From Sorghum bicolor (lineage: Eukaryota; Streptophyta; Magnoliopsida; Poales; Poaceae), in assembly GCF_000003195.3 (NCBI RefSeq), contig NC_012877.2:17229344-17293343 (forward strand): a DNA stretch of 64,000 nt, read 5' to 3'. The notes below the pieces were generated by a model. That model was not told the DNA's origin. It saw nothing but the letters and a program-made list of their open reading frames with translations, and ran no database searches. The stretch's first letter is position 1. The number at the start of each line of letters is the position of its first letter. Positions 5,239 through 61,702 of the stretch are shown piece by piece. A program made the translations under genes and the position numbers.

Positions 5239-5240
5239 AT

Positions 5241-5256: not shown

Positions 5257-5300
5257 CTCTCAATTTTGGGCTTAACCGCCTTGAGAGATGATGTCGACAA

Positions 5301-19311: not shown

Positions 19312-20131
19312 ACGCCGTCGACATGGCGTACCCCACCGACCAGATCTTCATGCTCGACTGGGTCGCCGGCTGTCCGACGAGGGGAAGCTGCTCGACGCCG
19401 CGGACGCAAAGCTGCCGGACGGTGGCGCCTCCGCGTTGTTCGACGTCGGAAGGGTCATGCACCTCGGCCTCCTCTGCTCGCTGCACGACCCCAGGACGCG
19501 TCCGACCATGAGGTGGGTGGTGGAGAACCTCTCCGACGGCTACTCCGGCGGCGAACTCCTGCGTCTGCCGTCGTTCGTGGCACTCCCGAAGTACATCTCC
19601 CTCACCACTTCGTCGGCCTCCGACTCCGGTGCCACGACCGTCACCACCGACAGGAGCACAGCGACGACGTCTCTGTCCAATCCCATCTACACCACCGCGG
19701 CCGCGGACACCATCTACCACACCGCGGAAGACGAGAGTAGGGCCGGCTCCAGGTCCGCGTCCGCTGACTCCGGCTCCGGCCGGCGGTCGTCGTCGCGGCA
19801 ATCTCTCGTGGCGGCGATCCCGCACGTGGACATGCCACGTGAGATACCCTACAAGGAGATCGTCGCCATCACCAACGACTTCTCCGAGTCGTAGGTGGTC
19901 GCGGAGCTGGACTTCGGGACAGGGTACGAGGGCTTCCTGGACACCGGCCACGGCCGCGTCCACGTCCTCGTGAAGCGCCTGGGCATGAAGACGTGCCCGG
20001 CGCTGCGCGTCTGCTTCGCCAGGGAGCTCTGCAACCTAGCCAAGCTCCGGCACAGGAACCTCGTGCAGCTGCGCGGGTGGTGCACGGACCACGGCGAGAT
20101 GCTCGTCGTCTACGACTACGCCCCGGGGAGC
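19312..20131 (+). pseudogene. Captured gene fragment: linker between two kinase domains of a receptor-like kinase (S.2 type)
   Basis: The plus strand first encodes the end of a kinase domain (DVGRVMHLGLLCSLHDP then RPTMRWVVENL, near 19440-19540). A Ser/Thr/Ala-rich linker follows (LPKYISLTTSSASDSG and so on to about 19800). The start of a second kinase domain comes next (REIPYKEIVAITNDFSES near 19840, VHVLVKRLG near 19960 with the ATP-binding lysine, RHRNLVQLRGWC near 20055). This order fits plant receptor-like protein kinase S.2, a lectin-receptor-kinase relative with tandem kinase domains. An in-frame TAG at about 19891 and truncation at both ends make it non-functional. The identification is from memory of the family. 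Confidence 0.75.
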
Positions 20132-20370
20132 CTGCTGATTTGTAATTGAAGGCTCGACGCCGTGATCTACGGCGTCGACCTCTCTGCCACGTCGGATGCC
20201 ACGCTGGGCTCGGCCAGGGAGCTCGACGCCGTGATCCATGGCGTCGAGACGTGTAACCTCGACGCCATGAAGCATGGCGTCGACCCCCTGGGTCCAAAAT
20301 TGAGTTTAAGTTTTTCAGGGGTCCAAAAGAGAATTTTCTTCAAAAAAGGGCCAAATTGTAAAAAATTGGG
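20132..20370 (-). repeat. Right terminal inverted repeat of the Pack-MULE
   Basis: Reverse complement of the left repeat with scattered substitutions (for example the ATG/GTG-type changes near 20200 and 20285). It carries the same three palindromes. The TAA in TTGTAATTGAAGG at its inner edge ends the captured kinase frame. Confidence 0.9.
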
Positions 20371-20379
20371 GGATATATA
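20371..20379 (+). repeat. 9-bp target-site duplication, right copy (GGATATATA)
   Basis: Second copy of the Mutator-type target duplication. The Copia coding sequence resumes directly behind it. Confidence 0.92.
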
Positions 20380-36400: not shown

Positions 36401-39400
36401 TTGTTCGCAGCACCAAAACTCGATCGTGTCCAAGTGTTCGCGTGTGTTTCTCTCGCCGCCGCTCGTGCGCTCACCGCGGCGTTCACCGCCGTTCGGTTTC
36501 CAACATATGTTGGGAAGCTTTTTGCTTGCTATGGTGGGAGTTCTCACCTGAGCTAGCAAGGTGAGTTCGCTCGCGCAGGCAAGGCTAGGCAATACTAGCC
36601 TGGGGACCGAACACACCCTAGGTCCCTCGACTATTAATTTGCAGTTTCACCTCCCTGAAATTGCTAGCAGATTCTGCAGAGATCAAAACCTTCCCTCCCT
36701 CTCCCTCTCTGAACATCGGGGTGGCACGGGCTAAGCTGCTCCATGGCTAGTTTCTTTGTCAAGGGCGTCAAGCCCCCGACGTGCAGGGCCTCGGCTACGG
36801 AGCTCGTAGCCGTCGGCCGTCTTCTCCGGTGAGGTTATACCCCTCTACCGCAGGCTTAGGGTTTAGAGAAGAGATAGGATAATAATCTTTGCTTGCCTCC
36901 AATGTTCACGGTTACAGAATATAAGGCCTTAGCCCAAACTAATAGGGGTAACAAATCCCCTTAAAACCAGGAATAGATAATAGCAAATAGAAACTAGAAA
37001 TATCTTTCCTAATCTTATTCACCTAGGGCATCACGCCCAGGCTTGCGCGGCTCACGCCCAAGCTCGCGCTCCGCGCGCTCACGCGCGCGACGAACGTCTC
37101 GCGCCCGAGACCGGCGCGTATAGACGCGTCCCCACATGACATCTCCCCCCCCCCCCCCGTCGAGGTTCAGCTCGTCCTCAAGCTGGAAGGTAGGGTGCTT
37201 GGCGAGGAATGTGTCGACGTCTTCCCACGTGGACGAGGCTGTGGACTCGCCTTTCCACTTGATCAGCACCTGACGGATGCCTCTGGCCAGGCGATAGCGC
37301 ACCGCGCGCTCTGGTTCAGGTGCAATGGCGCCATGATGCACCTGCGGTAGAGGCGGAGGTGCTGTCGGAGGTGGCCCTTCGAACTTCTTGAGCAGGCCGA
37401 CATGAAAAACGTCGTGAAGGCGCGCGTTGGGCGGCAGGGCGAGGCGAACAGCGACCTCATTGATGAGCTCCACGACTTGGTAGGGCCCGTAGAAGCGCGG
37501 CTTAAGCTTGCCCTTCGTCTGCTGCTGCAGGGAGGAGGCCGCAAGCTGGCGAAGGCGAAGAAGGGCCCAGTCGCCCACCTGATAGGTCACTGGACGATGG
37601 CCAGCGTCGTAGAAGCGCTTCTGGACCGCCTGGGCCTGTTCAAGGCGGTAGCGGATGTCGGCGAGGAACTCCTCGCGTTCCTCTAGGGTCTTGGCGACAG
37701 CAGCAACCCTGGTTTCACCAGGTTCATAAGACCGGAGCGACGGAGGGTCCCGACCATACACCACGCGAAAGGGGGTGTCGCGGAGCGAAGACTGGTAGGC
37801 GGTATTGAAGACAAACTCCGCCCACGGAAGCCAGCGTAGCCATTGCCGAGGACGATCACCTGTGAGACAGCGCAAGTACATGATAATGACTCGGTTAGCA
37901 ACTTCAGATTGGCCGTCCGACTGAGGGTGGAAGGCCGTTGTCATCTGCAGTTTGGTGCCCGTCAAGCGCATGAGTTCACACCAGAACGCCGAGGTGAAAA
38001 CCGGGTCACGGTCAGACACCATGGACTGGGGAACGCCGTGGAGGCGAACAATGTCGGCGAAGAACGCTTCGGCGACGGACTCCGCAGTGTACGGGTGTGC
38101 CAATGGGACAAAGTGGCAGTACTTGCTGAAACGATCGACCACCGTCAGGATCACTGTCTTGCCACGGACGCGGGGTAGAGCCTCGACGAAGTCCAGGGCG
38201 ATGTCCGTCCAAATGCCTTGCGGCACCGAGAGGGGCAGCAGGAGCCCGGTGGGTTGCAGGTGCTCTGATTTATACCGTTGGCAGACAACGCAGACTCGAA
38301 TAAGCTCCTGCACAACCTGTTTCATGTTAGGAAAATGGAAGTCGCGGCGGAGGCGGTGTAGAGTGCGTTGGACACCCTCATGTCCGTCCTCGTGCACTGC
38401 CAGCACAAGCTCCTGCAGCAACGGCGAGCCTGGGGGAATGTACAGGCGGCCGCTGTACTGCACCATGTCGTCCACCACGGACCAGGGCATGCCGCGGGCG
38501 CCGCTGCTGATGTCTTCCCGAAGAGCGACCATGGCCGGGTCTCCCGCATTGGCCTGGCGAAGCCGTGTGATGAAGTCAAAACGGGGAGCCGAGAGTGCCA
38601 GCACCGCGCCTGCTGTCTCCTCTTCTGTATCACGGCGGGACAGCGCGTCGGCGACCGTGTTCGTCACACCCGGTTTGTACTCGACGGAGAAATCGAACCC
38701 GAGGAGCTTGCCCACCCAATGGTGCTGCGGGATCGTCGAGAGCCTCTGGTCGAGCAGATATTTGAGGTTGTAGTGGTCGGTCTTCACAACGAAACGGCGC
38801 CCCCACAGGTACGGCCGCCAGTGACGTACTGCGTGGACGAGGCCGATGAGCTCCCGTTCGTAGGCGGCGAGGGCGCGGTGGCGCGGTGCGACCGGTCTGC
38901 TGAAAAACGCAATGGGATGCCCTTCCTGGATCAGAACAGCTCCAAAGCCATGGGTCGATGCGTCGCACTCTACTGTAAACGGCTTGGCGAAGTCCGGCAT
39001 GGTGAGGACGGGGGCCGAGGTGACCGCGGCCTTGAGAGCGCCGAAGGCGGAGGCCGCGGCGTCGGTCTAGGTGAAACCGTCCTTCTTGAGGAGGGCGGTG
39101 AGTGGGGCGGCGACCGCACCGTAGTTGAGGACGAATTTGCGGTAGTAGCCGGCGAGGCCCAGGAAGCCGCGCAGTGCGCGGACCGACCGAGGCACAGGCC
39201 AGTCGCGAATGGCCTGCACCTTCGTCGGGTCCATCGCGACGCCCTCCGCTGAAGTCACATGGCCCAGGTAGGCTACCGTGGCCTCGCCGAACGCACACTT
39301 GCTGCGTTTGATGAAAAGCCGATGGCGCCGCAGCTCGGAGAAGACAGCACGCAGGTGGCGAAGGTGATCGGCCCACGTCTCACTGTAAATAAGGATGTCG

Positions 39401-42400
39401 TCAAAAAAGACAAGCACGAACCGTCGGAGGAAGGGCCGGAGAACGTCGTTCATCAACGCCTGGAATGTGGCCGGAGCATTGCAGAGACCGAACGGCATGA
39501 CGAGGAACTCATAGAGTCCATCGTGGGTCCGGAACGCCGTCTTGTGGACGTCGGCGGGCAGCATGCGTACTTGGTGATATCCGGATCGCAAGTCGAGCTT
39601 GGTGAAGAAGCAGGCGCCATGCAGCTCGTCCAGCAACTCGTCGACCACAGGGATCGGAAAGGTGTCCTTGACGGTGAGGGCGTTCAAGGCCCTGTAGTCG
39701 ATGCAGAAACGCCACCCGCTGTCCGCCTTCTTGACGAGAAGCACCGGGGACGAGAAAGCGGAGTCGCTGCGCCGAATAATGCCTTGCTGCAGCATGGTCG
39801 CACATTGCTTCTCCAATTCGTCCTTGTGGGCAGCAGGGTACCGGTAGGGCCGGACCGCTACTGGTTGTGCGCCGGCCTTGAGGTTGATGGCGTGATCGCG
39901 GGCGCGCTGGGGAGGCATGCCGTGGGGCTCGGCGAAGATGTCGACGAACTCCGCCAGTAGTGCATCGAGGAGGGGCGCGCTGGACGTCGTGGCGCAGGTC
40001 TCCAGTGTACTCGTGGGCGCCACCCCTGGCCAACGGACGGTGCTGCCCTGATGCTGGAAGGAGACGGAGCCATCGATGAAGTCCCACACCAGGCGGCCCA
40101 GCGTGGCCATCCACTGCGTCCCCAGCACCAAGTCGTGGCCTGCAAGGGGCATAACAAAGAGGTCGACGGCGAAAACGGAGTCGTGGATCGCAATCGGGGC
40201 ATGCTTGATGACGCCTGGGCACGGCACCTTCTCGCCATTGGCCACCATGGCAGTGAGGCGCGGTTGGGACTGGATGGGAAGGCCAGACCGCGCTGCTGCT
40301 GTCTCGGCAATGAAGTTGTGGGTGCTGCCTGTGTCGAGCAGGGCAATGAGTGGAGTTGAGCCCACCCGGACACGGACCTGCATGGTCCTGCCCACAGACA
40401 CGCCAGCAACGGCGTGCAGGGAAAATATCGGCGCCTCCTGCGCCACTGCGTCTGCGGCTGCATCGGTCTCTTCCGCCTGGGCGTCGTCAATCTCCACGCC
40501 TTCGAGGAAGAACAGACGCTTACAGAATCGGTTGTGGCCACGGGAGAACTTCTCATTGCAGTTGAAGCACAGCCCTTGGCGTCGGCGCTCGGCCATCTCC
40601 TCGGGAGTCAGACGGCGCTGGTTGCCCTCGGCGTGGCCCTGTTGTGCAGCCGCGGGCGGTGCTGGTAGGGCCAAGAGCGGCGGTGACAGTGGCAGGGCGG
40701 CCCTGGCCGCAGGCGCCGACAGGCCGCGCGGGGGCGCCCTTGATGGAACAGGCGCCGGACGCTCCAGCTCCATCAACTCAACCTGGCGAGCCAAGCTGAT
40801 GGCGGCGGCGAGGGAGTCCGGGTTGTGGAGGCGGACGGTGCTGCTTAGCGGTGGTCGGAGCCCGCCAGTAAAGAGCTGCACCCGCTGCGCTTCGTCGAGT
40901 CTGCCGGCGCGAGGTAGGAGGGCCTGGAACCGGTTAGCATACTCCTCCACGGTTCCTGTGCGGCGGCACTCCGCGAGCTCAAACATTGGGGCGGAACAGA
41001 GAGGAGGGCCGAACCGCAAATTGAGGAGATCCTTGAAGTTAACCCACGTTGGCGTGCCCTCATCGTCTTGTAGTTGGATGAACCACAGCTGCGCAGCATC
41101 GTCCAGATGGTAGGACGCCATGCGCACGCGCTCTTCCGCCATGGTGCGATGTTGGCGGAAGTAGGCCTCGCATTTGTTGAGGAATAGCATCGGGTCGGTC
41201 GAGCCGTCGAAGTGGGGAAAGTCCCACTTCTTATGCTTCGGGTGGAAATCCTGCTTGCTCGCGGTGTCCTTCAGGGCGGCGGTTCTCGCTGCTTTCATCC
41301 GTCGAGGCCTTCTCTTTGATGGAGGCGACGTCGGTCTTCAGCGCTGAGATCTCGGCCGACATGGTCTTGATCTCCTTGAGGAGATCGGCGAGGGTTGGTT
41401 CAGCCATGGAGGACTGCGAGGTGTGCGTGGCAGAGGTAGATGGCGGCGGCTAGTGGTGGGCGGGTGTGGCAGCGGTAGATGGCTCAGAACGAGCGCGAGA
41501 GGAGCGGCTGACTGCTGATACCAGGTTGTCAAGGGCGTCAAGCCCCCGACGTGCAGGGCCTCGGCTACGAAGCTCGTAGCCGTCGGCCGTCTTCTCCGGT
41601 GAGGTTATACCCCTCTACCGCAGGCTTAGGGTTTAGAGAAGAGATAGGATAATAATCTTTGCTTGCCTCCAATGTTCACGGTTACAGAATATAAGGCCTT
41701 AGCCCAAACTAATAGGGGTAACAAATCCCCTTAAAACCAGGAATAGATAATAGCAAATAGAAACTAGAAATATCTTTCCTAATCTTATTCACCCAGGGCA
41801 TCACGCCCAGGCTTGCGCGGCTCACGCCCAGGCTCGCGCTCCGCGCGCTCACGCGCGCGACGAACGTCTCGCGCCCGAGACCGGCGCGTATAGACGCGTC
41901 CCCACATGACATTCTTGCACATGAAATAAGGAGAGCCTGAGGTTACTATATGATTTTATTACTTTCTATGCATTCATACAGCATTGTTAGGCAACTGACT
42001 CTAAACAATGGGCAGGAGTCATCAATGAAGGGCAAGGAACTGTCAAGGAACACTCCCCACTCCCTGTCTCTCTCCTACAGTAAGGGGTGCTCCACTTTAG
42101 GTGGCACAGCTCCAGGCTCATGCCGAGGGCCAGGACCCCAGCCTTGCACCTCTCACGCATCCCATCCACTCTCAGATCTTGTATTTTGCTCTCAGAACGC
42201 TTGATTTTAAGAGCTGTATGCATCCGATGTCAGGAATCTGATGATGAGGATCTATCACATCTGATCCACTACCTATGACAGTAAGCCACACCACATAATG
42301 AACCAGACGACTAAGCAAATTGTAACTCTCGGCTTAACTACTGAAAATCATATGGGAGTCAATTTGTACTAAACATAAGCAATAGATATGGCATCCCTCA

Positions 42401-46319: not shown

Positions 46320-46324
46320 GATGG
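46320..46324 (+). repeat. 5-bp target-site duplication of the Tat composite, left copy (GATGG)
   Basis: Identical to 61698-61702, directly outside the two outer LTRs. Confidence 0.88.
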
Positions 46325-47000
46325 TGTTGATGCAAAACAGGTCTGCAAACACAAAGGGCTAATACCCGATTCAAACGTTAAGGCGTGCCAGCCGATTTGA
46401 CCTTACTATCGGCAAAGGTGATAACTCGAATACTTTAGTCCTGACAACAGCGATGCGCCCGGATGTCACGGCTAAGAGGTACTCACACGGAACTCGAGAA
46501 CGCGCCGAGCTTAAGTCGACGGATTCCTAAGAACTCGTAATAAAAGGAAAAAGTATGACGAAGTCGTCGAAAAGTAGATGCTGGAATATGAGTAAAAACG
46601 TGTGTTTGATTGATTTCTTCCTCTTTATTACAAGGCCCTAGGGTTTATATTTATACCCTGCCCAAAGAGCTACAACCAGACATGATTAGAATTCGAATTC
46701 CAAATTACACGGAATCCGTATACAAAACGATGCAAATAATTAAGGAAATAACAAACTATTCCTCGTGACAAATCGAGACTCCTCCATATGACAACTGGCA
46801 GCTTCCGGACTCCTCCTTTGCATCATCGGCAGATCCTTTGCCATAGTCATCGGCAGACTTTCTTATCTAGCCATCGGCACCATATTACTGTCTGTCACAT
46901 TCAACTCCACCCTCATCGGCAACCATCCTCATCGGTAACCCGCATCGTACTGCCACCTTATCCTGCCATCCTAGACACGTGCCCAAAAACGGTGTCAACA
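46325..47000 (-). repeat. LTR A (3' LTR of the Tat composite)
   Basis: 676 bp, TGTTGACACC...GCATCAACA on the minus strand. It differs from C at three visible positions and holds several CATCGGCA words. A polypurine tract (AACTGGGGGG, 47005-47014) lies on its internal side. Confidence 0.92.
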
Positions 47001-47473
47001 CATGCCCCCCAGTTTCGGAGTATAAAACTATTAATGCTCCGAAATTCTCTGCAGTAATGATGCCTTCTCCCGCAATCAATGCTCCTAATCTGGTAACCGA
47101 CAACCTCAATCTAGACAACTCTGATCCTAATTCTCCGCAGATTCCTCGAAATCCCCAACTTCCTAAACGGACATTTTTCTTGGTCGTACATCGGCAACAA
47201 TACCGTTACAAAGATCTGCCGATGATCTGACCAGGATATTCGCAAAAACGGTTACCTCCCCTCTATCCGCCCATCGGCAAGATGACCGTTATAGAATATC
47301 GCCGATGGACCGACCAGGAAATCTCGCACAGTAAAATATCTTCAGATAATGACCGCTTCCCGTCAAATCACCTGCACAATCCCTGGATTACCGTGCGAAC
47401 AGTTACCATATCCACCTGAGTACCCTCGGGTTTCTCGGATGCGGCAAAGAGATAAGTCGGATTTGCCCTTGCC
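47001..47473 (-). mobile_element. Tat block 2: 3' non-coding end next to LTR A
   Basis: Reverse complement of 54233-54704, i.e. the sequence that precedes the 3' LTR in this family. It ends at a TGCC word shared with the RT block that follows. Confidence 0.85.
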
Positions 47474-47816
47474 TGGTTTAGACCGATCAATTGTTGAACA
47501 TCGGTTACCCATCAAGTCTGGGTTTCGGCCACATCAGCAACCAGCCCGCCGATGTAATCCTAACATTCTACCTGATATTAAGGCCGAAATCACTAAACTT
47601 ATTGAAGCTAAGTTTATTCAGCAGTGTCGGTATGCCGAATGGATTTCCAATATTGTTCCGGTTTACAAGAAGAACGGGAAGCTTCGGGTGTGCATTGATT
47701 TCAGGAATCTCAATAAAGCTACGCCGATGGATGGATACCCAATGCCTGTCGCCGATCTACTGGTTGATGCTGCGGCTGGCCATCGGGTCATCAGCTTCAT
47801 GGATGGTAATGCAGGT
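47470..47816 (+). pseudogene. Tat block 3: reverse transcriptase fragment, plus strand
   Basis: It encodes PGLDRSIVEHRLPIKSGFRP, then CRYAEWISNIVPVYKKNGKL and FRNLNKATPMDGYPMP, up to FMDGNAG. It is nearly identical to the reverse complement of 56790-57136 (one visible change, Gln for Arg). Cut on both sides. Confidence 0.85.
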
Positions 47817-48074
47817 TGTCCATACACCAATTGATAGGGTGATACCTTGGTCGATCCATGACAAGCCATCCGATAAGACCACAATGCTTCATTTAATAAT
47901 GTATGCCACCGCCTAGGATTTTCTTCAATCTTTCGTTTAATAAGCTTGATAATTCCTTTGTTAGACGCTTCGGCCTGCCCATTGGCTTGCGCATAATAAG
48001 GAGAAGAATTCAACACTTTAATTCCCATACCGATTGCGAATTCATCGAACTCCCCCGACGTGAACATGGTGCCC
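47817..48074 (-). pseudogene. Tat block 4: integrase core fragment, minus strand
   Basis: On the minus strand it reads TMFTSGEFDEFAIGMGIKVL, then PYYAQANGQAEASNKGI with the catalytic Glu, to VSPYQLVYG. It matches plus-strand 49940-50190. The right end shares GCCC with the next block. Confidence 0.85.
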
Positions 48075-48741
48075 GGTGGGACAGATTCAAGATCAAGATC
48101 AACATGTCGATCTCTGACCTCGATCAAGAGAACGTCATCCCCGTGACGGAGGCCAACCTCAAGGATGAGCAGAAGCAAGCTATTGCCCAAGCCATGGAAG
48201 AGTTCAAGCAGCAATGCCTGAGGTCTTTCAGCATAAACAGGAGCGGCGAAGTGGTCCAGAAAGATGCACTGCCGGCACCACGGCAGGTTACCTTTGACGC
48301 CAATCCTGGCAAGCTTCAAGATATGGTTGACAATGCCATCAATCGAGCGTTGATTAACCAAGCTGGTGTATTGTCTAATACGGTTTTCAATGCCGTGGCA
48401 AGAACTTTCAAGGAAGGACAAATCCCACCAGATTATGTGGGCCCCTCCCATCATCAGCCAACGGCACCAGAGGTCACGGCTCCATCGGCTGCCTTGACGA
48501 ATGCAAGTGCACAACCTGCCGTCCCTCCAAGTACATCGGGGACTACTGGTGCACTATCTATGCCGATGGCAACCAACCCACAATTTTCAGTTGGGTAGCA
48601 TAAACTGACAACAGATATGTTGGCATCGGCAATGTCAGGGTTGACTCTTCCTCCCAATTGGTGGGGTTACGGTATGCCTCCAGAGCTGACGCCGGGAACA
48701 TCACAAATAACTGACATGAGGGGCAAAACTCCTATGACATC
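48071..48741 (+). pseudogene. Tat block 5: primer-binding-site remnant and gag N-terminal fragment, plus strand
   Basis: Begins inside the primer-binding site (GCCCGGTGGGAC) and encodes the gag start MSISDLDQENVIPVTEANLK to about GKTPMTS. An in-frame TAG at about 48597 interrupts it. It matches the reverse complement of 60345-61006 with about three visible differences. Confidence 0.85.
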
Positions 48742-49350
48742 TCATTACCCAAGCATCGGAGAAGAATTCCGTCGATAGTTCGATAATACAATTCATTTTT
48801 AAGGAGCACATACTTGGTTGCTTGAAATCGAACCCGTCTTTCAACTTTCTTGGATGGATCTTTTAGATAATCAATAATTTCTTTCCTCCAATCATCGGCA
48901 CCGACTACCGATGTCGCATTAATCATTGGCTGATATCCCGAGGCATGCTGAGCTAACCGATTAGTGTCTTCATTATGCAATCGGGGAACATGCTCCAATC
49001 GGAAATCCTTGAATTCCTTTAACAATTGCATACTTCTCTCGAAATACGTTATGAGAACTTCACTTCGGCATTCATAGCTTCCGGCCAATTGATTTATAAC
49101 CAACATAGAATCCCCGAATATTTCAACAGCATCAGCACGAACTTCTCTCAGCAACTCCAATCCCTTGATCAGAGCTTGATACTCAGCCTGATTATTTGTC
49201 GATGTGGCAACAATCGGCAAGGAAAACTCATACTTCCTCCCCTTAGGGGAAACTAATACAATGCCGATTCCTGCCCCTCGGTCACAAGTAGATCCATCAA
49301 AGAAGAGCGTCCAGGGTACAATTTCCAAGGTTTCCACTAGACCGCAATGC
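48742..49350 (-). pseudogene. Tat block 6: RNase H to integrase N-terminal fragment, minus strand
   Basis: The minus strand encodes WTLFFDGSTCDRGAGIGIVL (RNase H), then HVPRLHNEDTNRLAQHASGY and the linker to INT (NELYYRTIDGILLRCLGN). It overlaps in content both 55396-55806 (about four differences in 410 bp) and plus-strand 49348-49505. It joins the next block at a shared TGC. Confidence 0.85.
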
Positions 49351-50614
49351 CGATGATTGGAGGAAAGAAATTATTGATTATCTAAAAGATCCATCCAAGA
49401 AAGTTGAAAGACGGGTTCGATTTCAAGCAACCAAGTATGTGCTCCTTGAAAATGAATTGTATTATCGAACTATCGACGGAATTCTTCTCCGATGCTTGGG
49501 TAATGATGAAGCTAGAAGTTTGATGGGGGAAATCCATGAGGGAGTGTGTGGAGCGCATCAGTCAGCTTTTAAGATGAAGTGGATGATTCGAAGGAATGGA
49601 TATTTTTGGCCAACCATACTTGAAGATTGTTTTAAATATTTCAAGGGATGTCAAGGTTGTCAAAAGTTTGGTAATATCCAGAGAGCACCCGCATCGGCTA
49701 TGAACCCTATAATAAAGCCTTGGCCGTTCCGGGGATGGGCCATCGATCTGATCGGCCAGATTTATCCACCATCTAGCAAAGGGCATAAGTTCATTCTAGT
49801 TGCCACTGACTATTTCACTAAGTGGGTTGAAGCTATTCCTTTGAAGAAAGTCACATCGGCCAATATGATTGATTTTGTGAAGGAGCATATTATTTACCGA
49901 TTTGGGATTCCCCAAACGATTACTACCGATCAGGGCACCATGTTCACGTCGGGGGAGTTCGATGAATTCGCAATCGGTATGGGAATTAAAGTGTTGAATT
50001 CTTCTCCTTATTATGCTCAAGCCAATGGGCAGGCCGAAGCGTCTAACAAAGGAATTATCAAGGTTATTAAACGAAAGATTGAAGAAAATCCTAGGCGGTG
50101 GCATACATTATTAAATGAAGCATTGTGGTCTTATCGGATGGCTTGTCATGGATCGACCAAGGTATCACCCTATCAATTGGTGTATGGACATGATGCAGTG
50201 TTGCCTTGGGAAATTAAGGCTGGATCTAGGCGATTATCTTTTCAAGATCAATTAACTTCCGACAATTATGCCACTTTGATGACCGATGAATTGGATGATC
50301 TAGCAGGGCATCGGTTAAAAGCTTTAATGAGTATAGAAGAAAATAAGAAAATAGTTGCTAGATGGTATGATAAGAAAGTGAAGGCTAAAGAGTTTGCCGA
50401 TGGGGATTTGGTATGGAAATTAATTTTACCAGTTGGGACCAAAAGTTCGAAGTTTGGAAAGTGGTCTCCTAATTGGGAGGGTCCTTATCGGATAAGTCGG
50501 TCGGCTCCTGGTAATGCCTACATTCTAGAAACCCTCGAAGGAATTGAATTTCCCAGAGCATTAAACGGTAAATATTTAAAGAAGTACTACCCCAGTATAT
50601 GGGTCGATGCATAG
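49348..50614 (+). pseudogene. Tat block 7a: integrase, plus strand, apparently complete
   Basis: An open frame from the linker through the whole integrase. The HHCC zinc region is HEGVCGAHQS...CQGCQKFG. The catalytic core has WAIDLIGQI (first Asp), TTDQGTMF (second Asp) and NGQAEASNK (Glu). The C-terminal part is FADGDLVWK...GPYRISRSAPGN, with the natural stop TAG at 50612. It lacks a start because the upstream pol is on the other strand across the junction at 49348. No lesion is seen in INT itself. Confidence 0.85.
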
Positions 50615-50624
50615 AAGTTTAGGT

Positions 50625-50714
50625 GCCGATAACACTCCTATCGGCTGGATCCAAATGATTGGGGACAAGACTTGGTGTTTCAAAAGTTTAGGCGCCGATA
50701 ACAGTCCTATCGGC
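50625..50714 (+). repeat. Two tandem hairpins just after the integrase stop
   Basis: GCCGATA-ACACTCC-TATCGGC (50625-50645) and GCCGATA-ACAGTCC-TATCGGC (50694-50714) have 7-bp stems and 7-nt loops, 69 bp apart, embedded in repeated AAGTTTAGG.GCCGATA words. Confidence 0.75.
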
Positions 50715-50767
50715 TAGACTAAAAGCTGAGGAAGCAGGAAAGCGCAGATACAATGCCGATGGAAACT

Positions 50768-53700
50768 CTATGTGTTAAGCAGCGTCTGGATAGCCGATAT
50801 AGCACGTAGCCGAATTTGGTTGGCTGCTTCTATCTCCTTGATGTCATCATCGGCAGAACCTTCTATCGGCTTCAGCTTCTTCTTCAGTTGGAGTGCCTTG
50901 CGACCATGAACATTTCGCTCGTGCTCAAGAAGCCTGATGGTCTCTGGCAATTGGTTCTCTTCCTGTTGGGCTTGGGATAAGGCGTTCTCCACTTCCTTGA
51001 GTTCCGCCAACAGGGATTCTCTTCTTGCCGATAGATCGGATATCTTCTGCTTCAGCGCATCTCCTGAAGATTTCAGGATACCGATGTTCTTGTGCTTCTC
51101 ATCGGTCAGGAGTTTCTCTTTCCTCATTTCATCGGAGAGCTGAGTTTGAGCAGCTCTATCGGCAAGACGCCGAGAAGCTCTCTGGTACTGCAGCTGGCGA
51201 CTCTCTAGATGAGCGGCTTGGAACAGGATCTCTTCGACGTCGGCCGGGATTTGGCCTCTGAGAGTTCTGAACAGGGTCTTGGTAGGGTCGGAGTCGTCGA
51301 CCAAATGCGCTGTATCCTGGTGAAGGAGAACTGACAATTCTTCCAGCCTGGCCCTGATCTCTGCCGATGTAATGCCAACTGTCTGAGAAGAGCTTGCTTC
51401 TTCGCCTTCTTCTTCAGAGAGATCGATGGCGAAGGAAAATAAGCTATCAGGGGAATCTTGTTCCTGGGAGGGAAAGCAAGGTTAGCTCATATTCGGAGAA
51501 TCGGCAAATGATACTGGCGGTAAACAGTGACTTACTTGCTTCAAGGCGATCTCTTGCCTTGGACTGGGAGGTGCTGACGGAGCTGCGGACTGACCGGCCA
51601 AAGATGCCGATGGAACTATATGTTGATCGGTTAAGGTTGCCGATGGGACGATATCGATTGAAGGAAGACAAGAAAGGTTATGAGACTAAATGAAAATGAG
51701 TTCATCGGCAACGGTATTGTTAAAGTATGTTACCTGGAGGGGGAACCACGGTTGTCTGAATCGGGAGAGCCGCCGATGATATAATTGGACCCACCGGACC
51801 AGTTGTTTGTTCGCCCACATCAACTGACGTACCTTCTGTTTGAGGCTCTTCCTGCTGGGATTCTTCCATCTGTGGTGCATCCTGCATTGGTTGGGGAGAT
51901 GGCGCTTGCCGTGTCTGGGCTTCTGGAGAAGAAGGAGAAGACTCCACTGGGATTGGAGATACCGGAGGAGGAGGGGGAGTTGCTACTTTTTGACGTTTCG
52001 TTTCGGCCCTGGTGCTCTTGACACCCTTCCTCTTTGGCTGGCTGGACTGGGTGGCATCGGCACCTTGACGTGTGACCTTTGCCGATGCACTCGTTTGCTG
52101 CAATAACGAACAAGTGTTTATAAGTATAAATAAAGCCGATATAAAGATAGTCAGCGTAAAAGATAAAGATTTGACAAATTGCCTTGAAAGCCCGCGCCAG
52201 AGTGGGAGCAGCTACCGTTGGTGATGTCTGGGTTCTCCTGGTCGTAACTTTCCTGAGGCGCACGCCCCGATGCACGGTGGAAGCCAGAGTGGGAGCATTG
52301 TGGCCGATTGAGGAAATCGGGCCTGATGGAAACAAGTCGATCGGCTTGCCACTCCTGCTAACCAATGGAGGAATATTGTCAACCTGCAAAAGGAATACAA
52401 GGGTAAGCTGCCGATAGAAGTAATAGTGAGAAAATGAAACGTTGGTTTGAGTTACTTACAGTGTCATCGGGAACTTCGTATTCGGGGTCAATCATGCCGC
52501 GGTATGAAAGTGCCGATCTGCAGAATAGATGCTCTTTCCATTCTGCCCACCATAACTTGTATGCCTGAGTGATAAAAGCAGCCGGAACCCATTCTGACAG
52601 ATCTACATCTACATCGGCGTTTGGTGGTAATTGGGCTACTCGAGTCCACTCAAGAAGGTTGTTGATGGTTTCTCTGGGTTTTATCACATCGGCATAGGGA
52701 AGTGCAATCGGCAACTGGCCGAAAGCTAACTGGCGAGCTAATGCCGATGGATTGTAAAATTCGTAAGTTTGGGGAGAAGTTTTCGTGCTACCGAAGAAAT
52801 TCACTGGAATGGCTCTGGGAGTCACAATTGCCATCATCGCCTCATTGTCCCTGTCGAGAGCTTCATCAAATGGATTGAAGGTCAGAGGGAGCATGCTATC
52901 TGGGTCATCATAAGCCAGCCATGGTCGTTCATCTCTGGCCAGACCCTCATACAGAGTCTCGAAGAATCGGCCGATCTGATCCGGATTATTCCCTGAACCG
53001 GGTAGGACTATAACGGCTTCGCCAAAGTTCAAGGGGGCACGCGTTGCCGATTCCTCTTCACCCAACACATGATTTTCGGCTATATCTCTTGGGAAGTGCT
53101 GTGAGAACAAGTTGAAATCAAGGCGCTTATGCAGGTGCAGATTGAGCCACATATTAATAAACCACCAGGGGCCTCCCAAGTTGCCGATGGATTGGCCAAG
53201 CAGGAGTTTCTGGGCTACCTGATGAAGAAGGTGGTAAACAGCGCTGAGCAAATATCGGCCGAGAGGAAATTGGCCACCGTTAGCCAGTCTTTCTGCTGCC
53301 GATAGATAGACAGAAGTCGGTCCTGCCGATCGACCACAGAATACAAACTTGTCCAGCCACATGTTCAGAAAGGTGGTTTGCTCCTTTATGGTGACAGGCC
53401 CTCTCCCGCGGTACTTCTGAATGTACCCTGACCAACCGCCGATAGCGTGAGTCTCCACTTTGGCACTGGGGGCAGTATCAAAAAAGTGGGTGCTATCGGC
53501 AGAAGATATATCTAGCCCAGTGAGCATGGCTACATCGGCAAGGGTAGGAGAAGCAGGGCCGTGGCCAAAAACAAAAGCATTGAGGGTGTCTGACCAAAAG
53601 TAGGATGCAGCTATCAGCAGTGACTCGTTCCTGTGCATATCGGCAATGGATAGCCTAATGCATTGGGCTAGCTTCCTCTCACCCCACTGGACTTCATAAG

Positions 53701-54205
53701 AATTGCTGACCCTCAAGAACCAGTCTTTCCACCCTACGGTAGGGCTGGGCCAAGAGCGAAAAGTGTCTTTCCACAGATCTACAGAAAAGTTTTCAGCTCT
53801 AAAGGGGATCCTATTGGTTTCTGCGTTGATAAGATTGGTTGGATCTGAATCCCCTAGAGGACCGAGACATTGAAGGTGTGGTTGATCGGTGGGGATGACA
53901 ATTTTATTGGACAACTCCTAGTGATTTTGGGGGAATAAAAATACAAAGAAAAAGGAAAAGGAGAATATTCAGTAAGATGAATCGCGGATGAATAGGAATA
54001 AAAAAAATATACACAGAAGATGAGATGGAAATCTGACCTCAGGGACGACGAAGCCAATGGCCATCTTGTCGTGAAGAGGACGTTGGAGGGCACCGGAGTT
54101 GATGAAGAGGAGTGCTTGTCGGAGGTCTTGAAGGTTGTAAATGGCGCCGCCGCTGGAAAAGTAAAGTTGGATAGTAGAATGGTGTGATGGGGAAGGAGTA
54201 CCCAA
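50768..54205 (-). CDS. Antisense, intron-containing gene in the retroelement: plant mobile domain protein with coiled-coil tail
   Basis: It lies between the plus-strand integrase and LTR B, on the opposite strand. Proposed exons: 54205-54038 (MGTPSPSHHSTIQ.., 56 codons), 53917-52460 (486 codons), 52383-52183 (67 codons, GC-AG donor), 52097-51734, about 51690-51536, and 51463-50768. Exons 1-4 and 5-6 join in phase; the 4/5 junction does not, so this copy may be damaged there. Exon 2 is an aminotransferase-like plant mobile domain (WKDWFLRVSNSYEVQWGERK, LADVAMLTGLDI, PWWFINMWLNLHL). Exon 4 is Pro/Gln-rich; exon 6 is a long coiled coil. Extra antisense ORFs at this position, and mobile-domain genes in retroelements, are known from Tat-type elements. 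Its function for the element is unknown. Confidence 0.7.
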
Positions 54206-54704
54206 GAAGGAACTATTTATAGGACAAGATGGGCAAGGGCAAATCCGACTTATCTCTTTGCCGCATCCGAGAAACCCGAGGGTACTCAGGTGGATATGGT
54301 AACTGTTCGCACGGTAATCCAGGGATTGTGCAGGTGATTTGACGGGAAGCGGTCATTATCTGAAGATATTTTACTGTGCGAGATCTCCTGGTCGGTCCAT
54401 CGGCGATATTCTATAACGGTCATCTTGCCGATGGGCGGATAGAGGGGAGGTAACCGTTTTTGCGAATATCCTGGTCAGATCATCGGCAGATCTTTGTAAC
54501 GGTATTGTTGCCGATGTACGACCAAGAAAAATGCCCGTTTAGGAAGTTGGGGATTTCGAGGAATCTGCGGATAATTAGGATCAGAGTTGTCCAGATTGAG
54601 GTTGTCGGTTACCAGATTAGGAGCATTGATTGCGGGAGAAGGCATCATTACTGCAGAGAATTTCGGAGCATTAATAGTTTTATACTCCGAAACTGGGGGG
54701 CATG
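54206..54704 (+). mobile_element. Tat 3' non-coding region with polypurine tract (plus copy)
   Basis: AT/GC-mixed sequence dense in GCCGAT/ATCGGC, ending in AACTGGGGGGCATG (54691-54704) directly before LTR B. It may also serve as the promoter of the antisense gene that starts at 54205. Confidence 0.65.
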
Positions 54705-55380
54705 TGTTGACACCGTTTTTGGGCACGTGTCTAGGATGAGAGGATAAGGTGGCAGTACGATGCGGGTTACCGATGAGGATGGTTGCCGATGAGGGAGGAG
54801 TTGAATGTGACAGGCAGTAATATGGTGCCGATGGCTAGATAAGAAAGTCTGCCGATGACTATGGCAAAGGATCTGCCGATGATGCAAAGGAGGAGTCCGG
54901 AAGCTGCCAGTTGTCATGTGGAGGAGTCTCGATTTGTCACGAGGAATAGTTTGTTATTTCCTTAATTATTTGCATCGTTTTGTATACGGATTCCGTGTAA
55001 TTTGGAATTCGAATTCTAATCATGTCTGGTTGTAGCTCTTTGGGCAGGGTATAAATATAAACCCTAGGGCCTTGTAATAAAGAGGAAGAAATCAATCAAA
55101 CACACGTTTTTACTCATATTCCAGCATCTACTTTTCGACGACTTCGTCATACTTTTTCCTTTTATTACGAGTTCTTAGGAATCCGTCGACTTAAGCTCGG
55201 CGCGTTCTCGAGTTCCGTGTGAGTACCTCTTAGCCGTGACATCCGGGCGCATCGCTGTTGTCAGGACTAAAGTATTCGAGTTATCACCTTTGCCGATAGT
55301 AAGGTCAAATCGGCTGGCACGCCTTAACGTTTGAATCGGGTATTAGCCCTTTGTGTTTGCAGACCTGTTTTGCATCAACA
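54705..55380 (+). repeat. LTR B, inverted relative to LTRs A and C
   Basis: 676 bp, TGTTGACACC...ATCAACA on the plus strand. It has a polypurine tract on its left and CATCTT, the first six bases of the normal post-LTR leader, on its right, so element sequence flanks it on both sides. It differs from C at two adjacent visible positions. Confidence 0.92.
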
Positions 55381-55395
55381 CATCTTCCGGACTGC

Positions 55396-57329
55396 TATCC
55401 CGAGGCATGCTGAGCTAACCGATTAGTGTCTTCATTATGCAATCGGGGAACATGCTCCAATCGGGAATCCTTGAATTCCTTTAACAGTTGCATACTTCTC
55501 TCGAAATACGTTATGAGAACTTCACTTCGGCATTCATAGCTTCCGACCAATTGATTTATAACCAACATAGAATCCCCGAATATTTCAATAGCATCAGCAC
55601 GAACTTCTCTCAGCAACTCCAATCCCTTGATCAGAGCTTGATACTCAGCCTGATTATTTGTCGATGTGGCAACAATCGGCAAGGAAAACTCATACTTCCT
55701 CCCCTTAGGGGAAACTAATACAATGCCGATTCCTGCCCCTCGGTCACAAGTAGATCCATCAAAGAAGAGCGTCCAGGGTACAATTTCCAAGGTTTCCACT
55801 AGACCGCAATGCTGAGTCACAAAATCGGCCATAATCTGCCCTTTGACTGCCTTAGCCGATTCGTAACGCAAATCGAACTCCGACAGCGCTAAAATCCATT
55901 TACCGATCCTACCACTCATAATCGGCATAGATAGCATGTATCGGACCACGTCATCTTTGCAAACGACAGTGCATTCGGCCGATAACAGGTAATGTCTCAG
56001 CTTGATACATGAAAAATATAAGCATAAGCATAGTTTATCAATGGCCGAATACCTGGTTTCAGCATCAATCAACCTCCTACTCAAATAATAAATTACCCTT
56101 TCTTTCCCTTCAAATTCTTGAACTAAAGCTGAACCGACAACCGATCCATCGGTAGATAAATACAATCTGAAGGGCTTCCCTTGTTGAGGTGGAACTAAAA
56201 CTGGAGGATTTACTAGATACTTCTTGATTTCATCCAGAGCCAACTGCTGTTCTTCTCCCCAAACAAACTCTTGATCGGCTTTCAATTTAAGAAGAGGATT
56301 GAAAGCACGAATCCTTCCAGATAAATTCGATATAAATCTCCTGATAAAATTTACCTTGCCGATCAAGGATTGGAGCTCGGTTTTGTTGGTAGGGGCCACT
56401 ATTTTATTGATGGCATCAATAGATCTTCGACTAATTTCAATACCCCTCTGATGTACCATGAAACCAAGAAACTGCCCTGCCCATACGCCAAATGCACACT
56501 TGTTGGGATTCATCTTCAATCCATGCTTCCTTGTGCACTCTAACACTTTTCGTAAATCGGCAAGATGCTTTGAGAAATCTCCAGACTTAACCACCACATC
56601 ATCAATATAAATCTCTACGAGCTTGCCGATGAACTCATGAAATATAAAATTCATAGCCCTTTGATAAGTAGCACCAGCGTTCTTCAACCCAAAAGTCATG
56701 ACTATCCATTCAAATAATCCAACATGACCAGGACACCTGAATGCGGTTTTTGGAATATCCTCCTCTGCCATGAATATTTGATTGTAACCTGCATTACCAT
56801 CCATGAAGCTGATGACCCGATGGCCAGCCGCAGCATCAACCAGTAGATCGGCGACAGGCATTGGGTATCCATCCATCGGCGTAGCTTTATTGAGATTCCT
56901 GAAATCAATGCACACCCGAAGCTTCCCGTTCTTCTTGTAAACCGGAACAATATTGGAAATCCATTCGGCATACCGACACTGCCGAATAAACTTAGCTTCA
57001 ATAAGTTTAGTGATTTCGGCCTTAATATCAGGTAGAATGTTAGGATTACATCGGCGGGCTGGTTGCTGATGTGGCCGAAACCCAGACTTGATGGGTAACC
57101 GATGTTCAACAATTGATCGGTCTAAACCAGGCATCTCTGTATAATCCCAAGCAAAGCAATCTTTATATTCCTTTAACAAACTAGTCAATTGTCGCTTACT
57201 CTCAGGATCTAATTGAGCACTAATAAAAGTAGGCCTAGGCTTATCACCATTACCTATATCTACTTCTACCAAATCATCGGCCGATGTGAATCCCTGGCCT
57301 AATTTTCCATCATCGGCGAATCTATCCAT
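55396..57329 (-). pseudogene. Tat block 9a: reverse transcriptase and RNase H, minus strand
   Basis: A long open frame, MDRFADDGKLGQGFTSADDL and onward. The RT has KNGKLRVCIDFRNLNKATPM, MTFGLKNAGATYQRAM and the catalytic YIDDVVVKS. The RNase H follows in two parts (GKPFRLYLSTDGSVVGSALV; WTLFFDGSTCDRGAGIGIVL with NNQAEYQAL and GDSMLV). The frame is cut at 55396 by the junction with LTR B, so integrase does not follow on this strand. Its start overlaps the stop of the protease frame (TAATG), which a single lost T in a T run would explain. Confidence 0.85.
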
Positions 57330-58755
57330 TAAAAACCGTCGTCAGAACCGACTGCTTGGATCGGTGGAATCTCATAGTCGGCAACTTTGAGAAAATCTTT
57401 CTCCCAAACTTCTCCTGAAATGCACCTGGTCCTTTCGTAAGTATCCGCTTCTGCCGATGCGATAACATAAGAAGAATCTCCTGGGACAATCTCAATCTTG
57501 TCACCTACCCACTGAACCAAGCACTGATGCATTGTAGATGGGACACAACAATTGGCATGAATCCAATCTCTCCCCAATAATAAATTGTAGGCACCTTTTC
57601 CGCTGATCACGAAAAAAGTTGTCGGCAAGGTTTTGCTGCCGATGGTCAACTCTGCACATATCGCCCCCTTGACTGGAGACACGTTTCCTTCAAAGTCTTT
57701 GAGCATCATATCGGTCTTGGTCAAATCTTGATCCCCTTTCCCAAGCTTCCGATATACTGCATACGGCATAATATTAATAGCAGCTCCACCATCAACTAGG
57801 ATCTTGGTCATTGGCTGCCCATCAACCCTTCCTTTGAGGAACAAAGCTTTAAGATGCTGCCTCTCGTCATCGGCAGGTTTCTCCAAGATAGCCGTCATCG
57901 GATCCAGAGCCAACTGAGCTATCTGATCAGAAAATTCCAACTCATCATCACTGGCTGGTGCAAGAAACTCCATCGGCAACATGAAGACCATGTTGACGCC
58001 TGCCGATGGACCTTCCCTCTTAGTGTCTGACGGCTGCCGACTTCCAGAGTTCTCTCCTTTGTTTAGCTCTTCTTGCCTTTCTCGTTGCAATCTCCTTTTC
58101 TGTGTTTTGGTTAGTCCTCGAGGGCACCATGGAGGAAGTGGCCTTTGCCTTGCCGTCGGGCGTCGATTCTCCCTTGACTCCATACGATGCGTGTTAGCAT
58201 CCCTGCAAAATATGAATTCATCGGGAACCCGCGCATCAGCCATTCCTTCGAGCTCCTCTTGGTTCCTGGGAAAATACTGGACACGGTCACTAAGTCTGTT
58301 GTGCCCACTAAATCTGCCCCCCAGCCGGTCATGAACTGACACCCTTCCTCTGATCGGCCCAATAGCTCGCCGTTCATCATCATGATAATGCCGATCGATC
58401 CTATCGTACCGATCATAACCGTTGCATTCAGGGCAGTTTCTGACAGTAGGAAGCTTGATATTTTCCTCCCAACAATGGATGAAGAATGGACAATTCCAAT
58501 GATCCCTGTGCCGATTCCACTCCTGTCGGCGTCTTTCTTCTTCCCGTCGATAATCTTCCTGCTGGCGCCGATACCGATCTTCCCGTTGTTGCCATTTTTC
58601 TCGAGGCCTTCTATGAGTTATGACGATACCAGATCGAGGAAGCCTTCCTGAGCTAGTTCCCTCCTGGACCAAGCCCTTACTTCTTGCATCGACAGTAGTA
58701 ACTCGATGCTGAGGATCTACCGATGCACTCTTCTCAGCTGTCTCGATGTTAAGAC
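57329..58755 (-). pseudogene. Tat block 9b: gag C-terminal linker and protease, minus strand
   Basis: A basic, Arg/Gln-rich region (REKWQQREDRYRRQQEDYRR), a CPxC-like site (NCPFFIHC, NCPECNGY), and then an aspartic protease with the Tat-type active site VDGGAAINIMP (near 57780) and LLLGRDWIHAN. A frameshift near 58757 separates it from gag. The end frame-shifts into RT at the TTTTTAATGG run. Confidence 0.8.
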
Positions 58756-60975
58756 CTTAGCCTTCCCTTTAGCATCCAACATGTTTGTCGGGAAAGGATG
58801 TTGGTCTATCTTCATCGGCTTCTGGGCTTTGGAATTGTCAAACTTGATTTTCCCTGACTCTATAGCCGATTGCAGCTGCTGTCTGAATACTTTGCACTCG
58901 TTGGTGTCATGGGAAGTTGCATTATGCCACTTGCAATATCTCATCCTCTTCAACTCTTCTGCCGATGGGATCACATGGTTAGGTGACAGTTTGATCTGAC
59001 CTTCCTGAAGTAGAAAGTCAAATATCCTATCAGCCTTAGCGGTGTCAAAGGCAAACTTCTCTGGTTCCTTTTGCCCAAAAGGACAAGACATCGGCTTTTT
59101 GTTTTTTACCCACTCTGCCAAACCGATTACTGGTTCTTCATCAGAATCTGAGCTTGTTGCTTCATCGACAAACGACACTTTCTTATTCCATGCCCTCTTA
59201 GGCTCGAAAGGCTTGATGTCTTGATCAGAAATCCTCTGCACCAAATGACTTAAACTTTCGAACTCCTGAGAGGCATACTTATCCCTGATATGTGGCAACA
59301 AACCCTGGAAAGCCAAATCGGCTAGCTGCCGATCATCTAGAACCAGGCTATAACATTTATTCTTGACCTCTCGTATCCTCTGCACAAATCCCTCAACCGA
59401 CTCATCATTACGTTGCCTCAACTTGACCAAGTCGGTGATCTTCTTCTCATGAACCCTCGAGAAGAAGTATTTGTGGAATTGCTTCTCTAGATCGGCCCAA
59501 GTAATTACTGAGTTGGGAGGTAATGATATGAACCAAGTAAAGGCCGATCCAGACAATGATGACGAAAATAGACGAACCCTCAATTCGTCCCTGTTACCAG
59601 CCTCTCCACATTGAATAATGAACCTGTTGACATGCTCCATGGTTGACGTGTCGTCCTGTCCGGAAAACTTTGTAAAATCCGGTACCTTGTACCGATGTGG
59701 AAGCGGGATCAAATCATACGCGGGAGGATACGGTGTCCGATAAGAATAAGTGTTGACTTTGGGTTTTATCCCAAATTGTTCCCTCATTACTTCAGCAATC
59801 TTATCGACCTAATATGCATCGGCATCTTGCCGATGAGGCGGCTGCGGATCTGGCACTTGGTGGCGAACCTCCACGTGTCTGTTCGGGACGTGATCTACAC
59901 GGAACATTGTATTGATCACCTGTCCTCCAATCTGCGGACCACCAAACTGCTGTCCACCGATTGGCTGTCCTCCGAGTTGCTGTCCAAAATTCATTGGCTG
60001 GTTGGGAATCCCCTGTCCTTGGAACCCGGGATAGACCTGCCCTTGCTGGAACCCTGTAGTCTGGTAACTCTGCTGGGGTGATTGTGGAAAGGCTTGTTGT
60101 CCAAGCCTTCCATTATTAGCGTTCATCGGCATAGGCGCTGCCGATGATTGGTAATTGGGTACCGTCGTTGAATTGACATACCCCGACTGGGCCATAGGCC
60201 TCTGTTGCATCAGCATTGACTCTGCCGATGCGTTGGGCATCTGGAACATTGAATCTTGAGGATTCCCAGTGTGAGGCCTTGCAGTAGTGGTTGTGGTATA
60301 CCGAGGACTCTGGTTCACCGGCGCATTGGGAAGTGCCGATGTCATAGGAGTTTTGCCCCTCATGTCAGTTATTTGTGATGTTCCCGGCGTCAGCTCTGGA
60401 GGCATACCGTAACCCCACCAATTGGGAGGAAGAGTCAACCCTGACATTGCCGATGCCAACATATCTGTTGTCAGTTTATGCTGCCCAACTGAAATTTGTG
60501 GGTTGGTTGCCATCGGCATAGATAGTGCACCAGTAGTCCCCGATGTACTTGGAGGGACGGCAGGTTGTGCACTTGCATTCGTCAAGGCAGCCGATGGAGC
60601 CGTGACCTCTGGTGCTGTTGGCTGATGATGGGAGGGGCCCACATAATCTGGTGGGATTTGTCCTTCCTTGAAAGTTCTTGCCACGGCATTGAAAACCGTA
60701 TTAGACAATACACCAGCTTGGTTAATCAACGCTCGATTGATGGCATTGTCAACCATATCTTGAAGCTTGCCAGGATTGGCGTCAAAGGTAACCTGCCGTG
60801 GTGCCGACAGTGCATCTTTCTGGACCACTTCGCCGCTCCTGTTTATGCTGAAAGACCTCAGGCATTGCTGCTTGAACTCTTCCATGGCTTGGGCAATAGC
60901 TTGCTTCTGCTCATCCTTGAGGTTGGCCTCCGTCACGGGGATGACATTCTCTTGATCGAGGTCAGAGATCGACAT
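58717..60975 (-). pseudogene. Tat block 9c: gag, minus strand
   Basis: It starts at ATG 60975 (MSISDLDQENVIPVTEANLK), 22 bp after the primer-binding site. A Pro/Gln/Gly-rich middle (GQQAFPQSPQQSYQTTGFQQ, then repeated GGQ.IGGQQFGGPQ) ends at an in-frame TAG (59809) just before VDKIAEVMREQFG. The retrotransposon gag domain follows (YKVPDFTKFSGQDDTSTMEH, AFTWFISLPPNSVITWADLE, YFFSRVHEKKITDLVKLRQR). A frame change near 58757 gives the second break. Confidence 0.82.
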
Positions 60976-60996
60976 GTTGATCTTGATCTTGAATCT

Positions 60997-61014
60997 GTCC
61001 CACCGGGCGTGCCA
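60997..61014 (-). other. Primer-binding site of the Tat element
   Basis: TGGCACGCCCGGTGGGAC on the minus strand, seven bases inside LTR C. This type is used by Grande/RIRE2-like Tat elements and is not the tRNA-Met type. Confidence 0.75.
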
Positions 61015-61021
61015 AAAGATG

Positions 61022-61697
61022 TGTTGATGCAAAACAGGTCTGCAAACACAAAGGGCTAATACCCGATTCAAACGTTAAGGCGTGCCAGCCGATTTGACCT
61101 TACTATCGGCAAAGGTGATAACTCGAATACTTTAGTCCTGACAACAGCGATGCGCCCGGATGTCACGGCTAAGAGGTACTCACACGGAACTCGAGAACGC
61201 GCCGAGCTTAAGTCGACGGATTCCTAAGAACTCGTAATAAAAGGAAAAAGTATGACGAAGTCGTCGAAAAGTAGATGCTGGAATATGAGTAAAAACGTGT
61301 GTTTGATTGATTTCTTCCTCTTTATTACAAGGCCCTAGGGTTTATATTTATACCCTGCCCAAAGAGCTACAACCAGACATGATTAGAATTCGAATTCCAA
61401 ATTACACGGAATCCGTATACAAAACGATGCAAATAATTAAGGAAATAACAAACTATTCCTCGTGACAAATCGAGACTCCTCCACATGACAACTGGCAGCT
61501 TCCGGACTCCTCCTTTGCATCATCGGCAGATCCTTTGCCATAGTCATCGGCAGACTTTCTTATCTAGCCATCGGCACCATATTACTGCCTGTCACATTCA
61601 ACTCCTCCCTCATCGGCAACCATCCTCATCGGTAACCCGCATCGTACTGCCACCTTATCCTGCCATCCTAGACACGTGCCCAAAAACGGTGTCAACA
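61022..61697 (-). repeat. LTR C (5' LTR of the Tat composite)
   Basis: 676 bp. Right boundary TGTTGACACC (minus) at 61697, followed outside by GATGG. Confidence 0.92.
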
Positions 61698-61702
61698 GAT
61701 GG
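61698..61702 (+). repeat. 5-bp target-site duplication of the Tat composite, right copy (GATGG)
   Basis: Matches 46320-46324 exactly. Confidence 0.88.

Follow-up and report, generated by a model that had tools for sequence, protein, structure and literature searches.

How can a retrotransposon bounded by one pair of long terminal repeats (LTRs) and one target duplication carry pieces of its own sequence on alternating strands? The question is raised by a 15.4-kb unit at positions 46320-61702 of a 64,000-nucleotide stretch of Sorghum bicolor DNA (the window, on contig C8; positions given without a contig refer to it). The two outer LTRs of the unit, at 46325-47000 and 61022-61697, are 676 bp each, lie in the same orientation on the minus strand, read TGTTGA...TCAACA, and differ from one another at 3 of 676 positions. 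A perfect 5-bp target duplication, GATGG, flanks them at 46320-46324 and 61698-61702. These boundaries bear out an earlier note on this DNA, made from the sequence alone, which had described two LTRs of 676 bp in the same orientation, a perfect duplication of GATGG outside them, and had proposed that a cDNA was scrambled before a single integration.

Architecture of the unit

Comparison of the window with itself revealed inverted and direct matches within the unit, 159-1150 bp long and 98.6-99.7% identical, that are far beyond chance. The unit is made up of seven blocks, all from one element, with the strand alternating across six junctions (J1 to J6). All seven blocks listed in the earlier note are recovered in the order it gave; its "at least seven" strand changes and seven junctions become six, the number of switches between seven blocks.

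The sense strand of the element within the unit is the minus strand, and we number element coordinates (E) from position 61697, where the outer 5' LTR begins. Read in element sense, the unit opens with block F1 (E 1-6306; 55392-61697, minus strand), which carries the 5' LTR, primer-binding site (PBS), gag, protease, reverse transcriptase (RT) and RNase H. It is followed by the inverted block F2 (E 12374-6336; 49348-55386, plus strand), which runs from integrase (INT) to a 3'-type LTR plus 6 bp. Three shorter blocks come next: F3, forward, from RNase H to INT (E 5886-6494; 48742-49350, minus strand); F4, inverted, from the PBS to gag (E 1360-690; 48071-48741, plus strand); and F5, a forward INT fragment (E 6921-7178; 47817-48074, minus strand). 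An inverted RT fragment, F6 (E 4912-4565; 47470-47817, plus strand), and the forward 3' end of the element with its LTR, F7 (E 11220-12368; 46325-47473, minus strand), complete the unit. F2 thereby places a third LTR inside the unit (54705-55380, plus strand), inverted relative to the outer LTRs. All five interior blocks come from the same element, and F3 to F7 are mutually non-overlapping.

From the blocks we infer an unscrambled element of 12,368 bp, in agreement with the 12,365 bp that separate the outer LTR ends of an ordinary copy of the family at C8:48470496-48482860. The stretch represented by F3, from RNase H to INT, is ungapped and contiguous in all four ordinary copies used for comparison. 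The INT open reading frame of F2 spans 49292-50614, with its first codons lying within F3, and antisense open reading frames occupy 50768-54216 of F2.

Element family and neighbouring elements

Pfam domains identified in the unit comprise gag, aspartyl protease, RT, a Ty3-type RNase H together with a second, RVT_3 RNase H, and integrase. A dual RNase H, in which an archaeal-type RNase H follows the Ty3/Gypsy RNase H, marks the plant Tat lineage according to the part of PMC5348765 consulted. The unit has a second RNase H in this place, putatively of the archaeal type: the open reading frame at 55395-57341 (minus strand) contains RVT_1, RT_RNaseH and RVT_3 in that order. The gene order is that of Ty3/Gypsy elements, with gag, protease and RT-RNase H in F1, and RNase H followed by INT in F3. 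Some Tat members carry an extra antisense open reading frame downstream of integrase, and F2 contains one that is antisense to INT and encodes a plant mobile domain by Pfam (52379-53917, minus strand). Judged by its domains, the element appears to be a Tat-like LTR retrotransposon. Among the best 120 protein relatives in each of two sets, the closest of those that bear an organism name come from grasses (Lolium, Oryza, Setaria); eudicots rank further down. A search for integrase relatives in viral contigs and genome contigs found none. The family is large, with 4461 first-look LTR candidates in the genome.

Other mobile elements populate the window. At 19066-20378, terminal inverted repeats of ~246 bp (94%) with an apparent 10-bp flanking repeat, GGATATATAC, lie within a Copia-type pol and enclose a GC-rich fragment that by eye resembles a receptor-like kinase gene; we take this to be a likely Pack-MULE. 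Two adjacent pairs of direct repeats, at 31341-36505 (362 bp, 99.7%) and 36756-41912 (387 bp, 99.2%), enclose sequence of ~60% GC and may be two young LTR elements.

Junctions between blocks

We next considered how the blocks are joined. Microhomology at J2 to J6 measures 3, 0, 4, 1 and 4 bp, respectively: TGC at J2 (49348-49350), none at J3 (48741-48742), GCCC within the putative PBS at J4 (48071-48074), a single base at J5 (47817) and TGCC at J6 (47470-47473). The sum of 12 bp exceeds that of random joins (p = 0.0017, in a model of independent, equally frequent bases). J1 is built differently: between the inner LTR and RNase H stand the hexamer CATCTT and a filler of ~5-10 bp (CCGGACTGCT, 55387-55396). 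We considered a templated origin for this filler; its 10 bases have no second match in the window, and the junction is single in the genome. By eye, a degraded TTGGC microhomology common to the start of the PBS and to RNase H is possible at J1, with four changes needed. Five of the six junctions make no contact with an LTR.

Three further properties of the breakpoints bear on mechanism. With both end blocks fixed, strict strand alternation has a chance of 1 in 32 by arithmetic. A distance of 29 bp separates the break of F1 (E 6306) from that of F2 (E 6336), and some pair of breaks this close arises by chance in 7% of simulations. The start of F4 falls 6-9 nt within the putative PBS, near the point at which a minus strand would be expected to end ahead of the second transfer.

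The earlier note had proposed searching the genome for other copies with the same junctions. We ran this search for J1, J2, J3, J4 and J6 across 709,120,108 bases, permitting three mismatches; each matched once, at the unit itself and with no mismatch, so no other copy with these five junctions was found. The scrambled unit seems not to have given rise to further copies.

The inner LTR and its flanks

The inner LTR combines flanks that normally belong to opposite ends of the element. Upstream lies the polypurine tract GGGGGGCATG, as at 3' LTRs; downstream lies CATCTT (55381-55386, plus strand), the spacer that normally follows the 5' LTR. In ordinary copies this spacer separates the 5' LTR from the putative PBS, TGGCACGCC..., and reads CATCTT(T) in three of four copies and CATATT(T) in the fourth. 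Where the 3' LTR ends of ordinary copies are readable, other sequence follows, and two copies have duplications on both sides (GATAC and GCTTC). Comparison of the inner LTR's own flanks, GCATG before it and CATCT after it, found no duplication, and the inner LTR has no partner, as the earlier note had recognized in reporting neither a second LTR pair nor a second target duplication.

The simplest source of an LTR with 3'-type sequence upstream and the spacer downstream would be the untrimmed free end of a linear cDNA. A 3'-type LTR ahead of the spacer would likewise be expected of a one-LTR circle or of a tandem element; since the break falls at most 6-7 bases from the end of the inner LTR, a free end seems likelier than either.

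To consider whether CATCTT after an LTR marks a whole class of unprocessed ends, we collected genomic sites at which an LTR end is followed by CATCTT and a non-T base. There are 52, the scrambled unit included; of the remaining 51, 39 pass a PBS filter, six are PBS-like by eye and six are not. At two of these last six (L035 and L048), CATCT also precedes a presumed partner LTR ~12 kb away, and CATCTT there is an ordinary target duplication of CATCT. At another of the six, no LTR start was found in the stretch examined. The two duplications call for caution in reading the inner LTR, as chance CATCT target duplications do exist in the family; there, however, the LTR borders host DNA, unlike the inner LTR.

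Several loci in this genome are of interest in their own right. At L037, L061 and L076, the LTR ends, CATCTT follows, and the sequence beyond is not PBS; CATCTT there may be a target duplication of CATCT, as it is at L035 and L048. At L049 (C5:29733348-29734367), an LTR end and CATCTT are followed directly by GTTGACACC, which resembles an LTR start and is possibly a junction of the two-LTR-circle type within a chromosome. At L070 (C9:16155569-16156588), a family LTR has a polypurine tract upstream and a PBS downstream, an arrangement as would be expected of a three-LTR tandem element.

Parentage and age of the blocks

We next asked whether the blocks share one parent. Between the members of internal block pairs, 17 of 2313 sites are different when one difference beside J1 is omitted (18 of 2317 with it included), a level of divergence not distinguishable from that of the outer LTRs (3 of 676; Fisher p = 0.59). 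Thirteen differences fall in coding sequence, of which nine are replacements and four are silent, near the neutral ratio (72% replacement expected); one replacement is a stop codon, which lies among the changes between F4 and F1.

Parts of four ordinary copies, from a family that has many, then served as a reference for the blocks. Paired blocks show 22 differences, of which 20 are private to a single block, with all four reference copies carrying the other state, and two segregate in the family. The private differences are split between partners, 13 in one and 7 in the other. Conversely, 12 states are common to both blocks of a pair and not found in the reference copies, of which three or more were readable at each such site; five of the 12 lie in the LTR. 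Over the same sites, summed by hand, the four copies diverge from the unit by about 1.8-2.6%, versus about 0.7% between blocks. The simplest reading of this pattern is that all blocks derive from one parental sequence and have since diverged for as long as the outer LTRs. The difference between the outer LTRs corresponds to an age of the order of 170,000 years if substitutions accrue at 1.3e-8 per site per year.

The shared and private states disfavor an origin of the blocks from two different family members. Three observations nevertheless leave some room for two parents: two sites segregate in the family; one base of the spacer is T after the outer 5' LTR and possibly C at J1, both of which occur in the family; and the identity of the nearest reference copy shifts, being the one at C8:48.47 Mb for the LTR and others for gag, RNase H and integrase. 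Variation of the nearest copy from block to block is what a recombining family would show, so two near-identical, co-packaged parents would be indistinguishable from one. On the earlier note's question of one or two parental elements, the four-copy comparison favors one, and two near-identical co-packaged parents still fit.

Origin of the scrambled unit

Overall, the unit is best read as a single insertion of a Tat-like element whose DNA was scrambled before integration, probably by RT jumping between opposite-sense templates within the particle; we put the probability of this reading at roughly 0.58. The cDNA-type end of the inner LTR and the apparently common parental sequence of the block pairs make scrambling before one integration, as the earlier note proposed, the best fit. 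Of the two mechanisms that note offered, strand switching survives; self-integration does not, as no processed CA end is found at an internal site with a 5-bp duplication. The order of the blocks, their junctions, the spacer behind the inner LTR, the distribution of shared and private differences and the target duplication are all observed in the assembly; a single parent, a free cDNA end, template jumping, its setting in the particle and the order of synthesis are our interpretation.

In outline, the plus strand of the window can be read as the growing minus strand of the element, which would have started normally at the 3' LTR (F7). F6, F4 and F2 would then be plus-sense stretches copied from minus-strand DNA, and F5, F3 and F1 minus-sense stretches copied from RNA. 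In this scheme the minus-sense pieces F7, F5, F3 and F1 would follow broadly the normal order, with three plus-sense excursions between them; F1 would recopy the last 420 bases of F3. The long excursion F2 would have continued to the end of its template, the minus strand's own 5' end, yielding the LTR, CATCTT and the filler; an enzyme running off a template end could append untemplated bases. A jump back after F2 would have allowed the minus strand to be completed through F1, and normal second-strand transfer followed by integrase action would have produced two outer LTRs and the 5-bp duplication.

Strict alternation, filler at a template end and the start of F4 near the minus-strand end favor RT jumping, and jumping would also best fit the microhomologies. 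The strongest objection to it is the 29-bp spacing of the F1 and F2 breaks, which looks as though a single molecule had snapped and its right half had been turned round. End joining of cDNA fragments would account for this more simply; under jumping, the RNA must have been broken or the strand have stalled there. A break in the RNA template near these breakpoints would square the spacing with jumping. Also against jumping, microhomology and filler are compatible with repair by polymerase theta or non-homologous end joining (NHEJ), CATCTT after a 3'-type LTR can come from target duplication as at the two loci above, and six jumps in one cDNA is extreme. We regard as tentative, and somewhat less probable than not, the full scenario of six switches by RT between RNA and minus-strand DNA templates within a single particle, during which a truncated minus strand was copied from the 3' end as far as the 5' end next to the primer, and the product was nonetheless competent for integration.

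A rather unlikely route, which we nonetheless take seriously, is that breakage of two linear cDNAs, both from this element, was followed by joining of their pieces end to end, by NHEJ or microhomology-mediated joining, before integrase inserted the product by its intact outer ends. The 29-bp spacing would then mark F1 and F2 as halves of one molecule, the non-overlapping F3-F7 could derive from the second copy, and the unprocessed LTR end with filler at J1 is like NHEJ joins. Random joins, however, would alternate strictly in only 1 of 32 cases, and integrase would have to use two ends from different cDNAs. End joining also takes place in the nucleus, in the presence of other DNA, but the blocks all come from one element. 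We consider it unlikely that an ordinary copy inserted first and that a later internal double-strand break was repaired with captured pieces of family cDNA. The part of PMC4516963 consulted documents, for mouse zygotes, that retrotransposon sequences can be captured at breaks, and microhomology and filler fit such repair. The captured pieces, however, share the host copy's private states, whereas other scored genomic LTRs are 94-98% identical (best 40 of the 4461 candidates), and F2, despite its free-cDNA-type end, starts 29 bp from the F1 break.

Fusion of several family members by assembly error seems improbable. The family is large and the unit is described from assembled sequence, but the fourfold set of ordinary copies differs more from the unit than its blocks differ from one another, the 12 shared states are absent from those copies, the outer duplication is perfect, and the five searched junctions are single-copy without mismatch. 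Least credible is autointegration by integrase or the later nesting of a second element. Either would account for a third LTR in opposite orientation within the unit, but the inner LTR does not end at a processed CA end and has no 5-bp duplication, a second LTR is absent, and most junctions lie away from LTRs. We rejected autointegration on the continuation of the LTR into CATCTT and filler without a duplication, and a nested LTR element on the single inner LTR with its unlike flanks.

Relation to known systems and implications

Template-switched LTR elements are already known in grasses, and the sorghum unit is a strand-alternating variant of them. Sabot and Schulman (2007, PMC1950507) described complex LTR elements of grasses in which three LTRs lie within a single target duplication, and proposed that they arose by aberrant template switching ahead of integration. 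The sorghum unit resembles these in its single 5-bp duplication (GATGG twice), near-identical outer LTRs (3/676) and inner LTR. Those elements contain two complete cores sharing the inner LTR, whereas the second core here is partial, and we did not find an inner LTR between two complete cores of the same orientation; also unlike them, the sorghum unit has its inner LTR and three blocks inverted, with six junctions.

More distant parallels exist. HIV-1 proviruses share internal inversion, which is among the defects screened in PMC8809251; the part of that account consulted gives neither a mechanism nor a multi-block example. At HIV-1 2-LTR circle junctions, free cDNA ends are end-joined, some with primer or tract remnants, according to the consulted part of PMC5618025; those junctions are in circles, whereas the cDNA-type end in sorghum lies inside an integrated linear unit. 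In Arabidopsis epigenetic mutants, the consulted part of PMC10462705 reports extrachromosomal copies that are rearranged, truncated or chimeric, as well as one chimeric insertion that has a 5-bp duplication; these are fusions and truncations, and the main text has no word starting "inver". The openly licensed literature we searched, mostly titles and the starts of abstracts, contained no strand-alternating LTR retrotransposon, nor was one found in the consulted parts of PMC12312487 and PMC12786077.

An LTR preceded by a polypurine tract and followed by the LTR-to-PBS spacer is a candidate diagnostic for distinguishing pre-integration scrambling from nested insertion, provided that chance target duplications starting with CATCT are excluded. 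If RT jumping is true, the entire path of the enzyme would be readable at one plant locus. If our reading is right, the cDNA of a plant retrotransposon can be heavily strand-inverted before integration and yet insert normally. Such cDNAs would give rise to inverted repeats and to novel element structures, visible in ordinary assemblies and potentially feeding small-RNA silencing.
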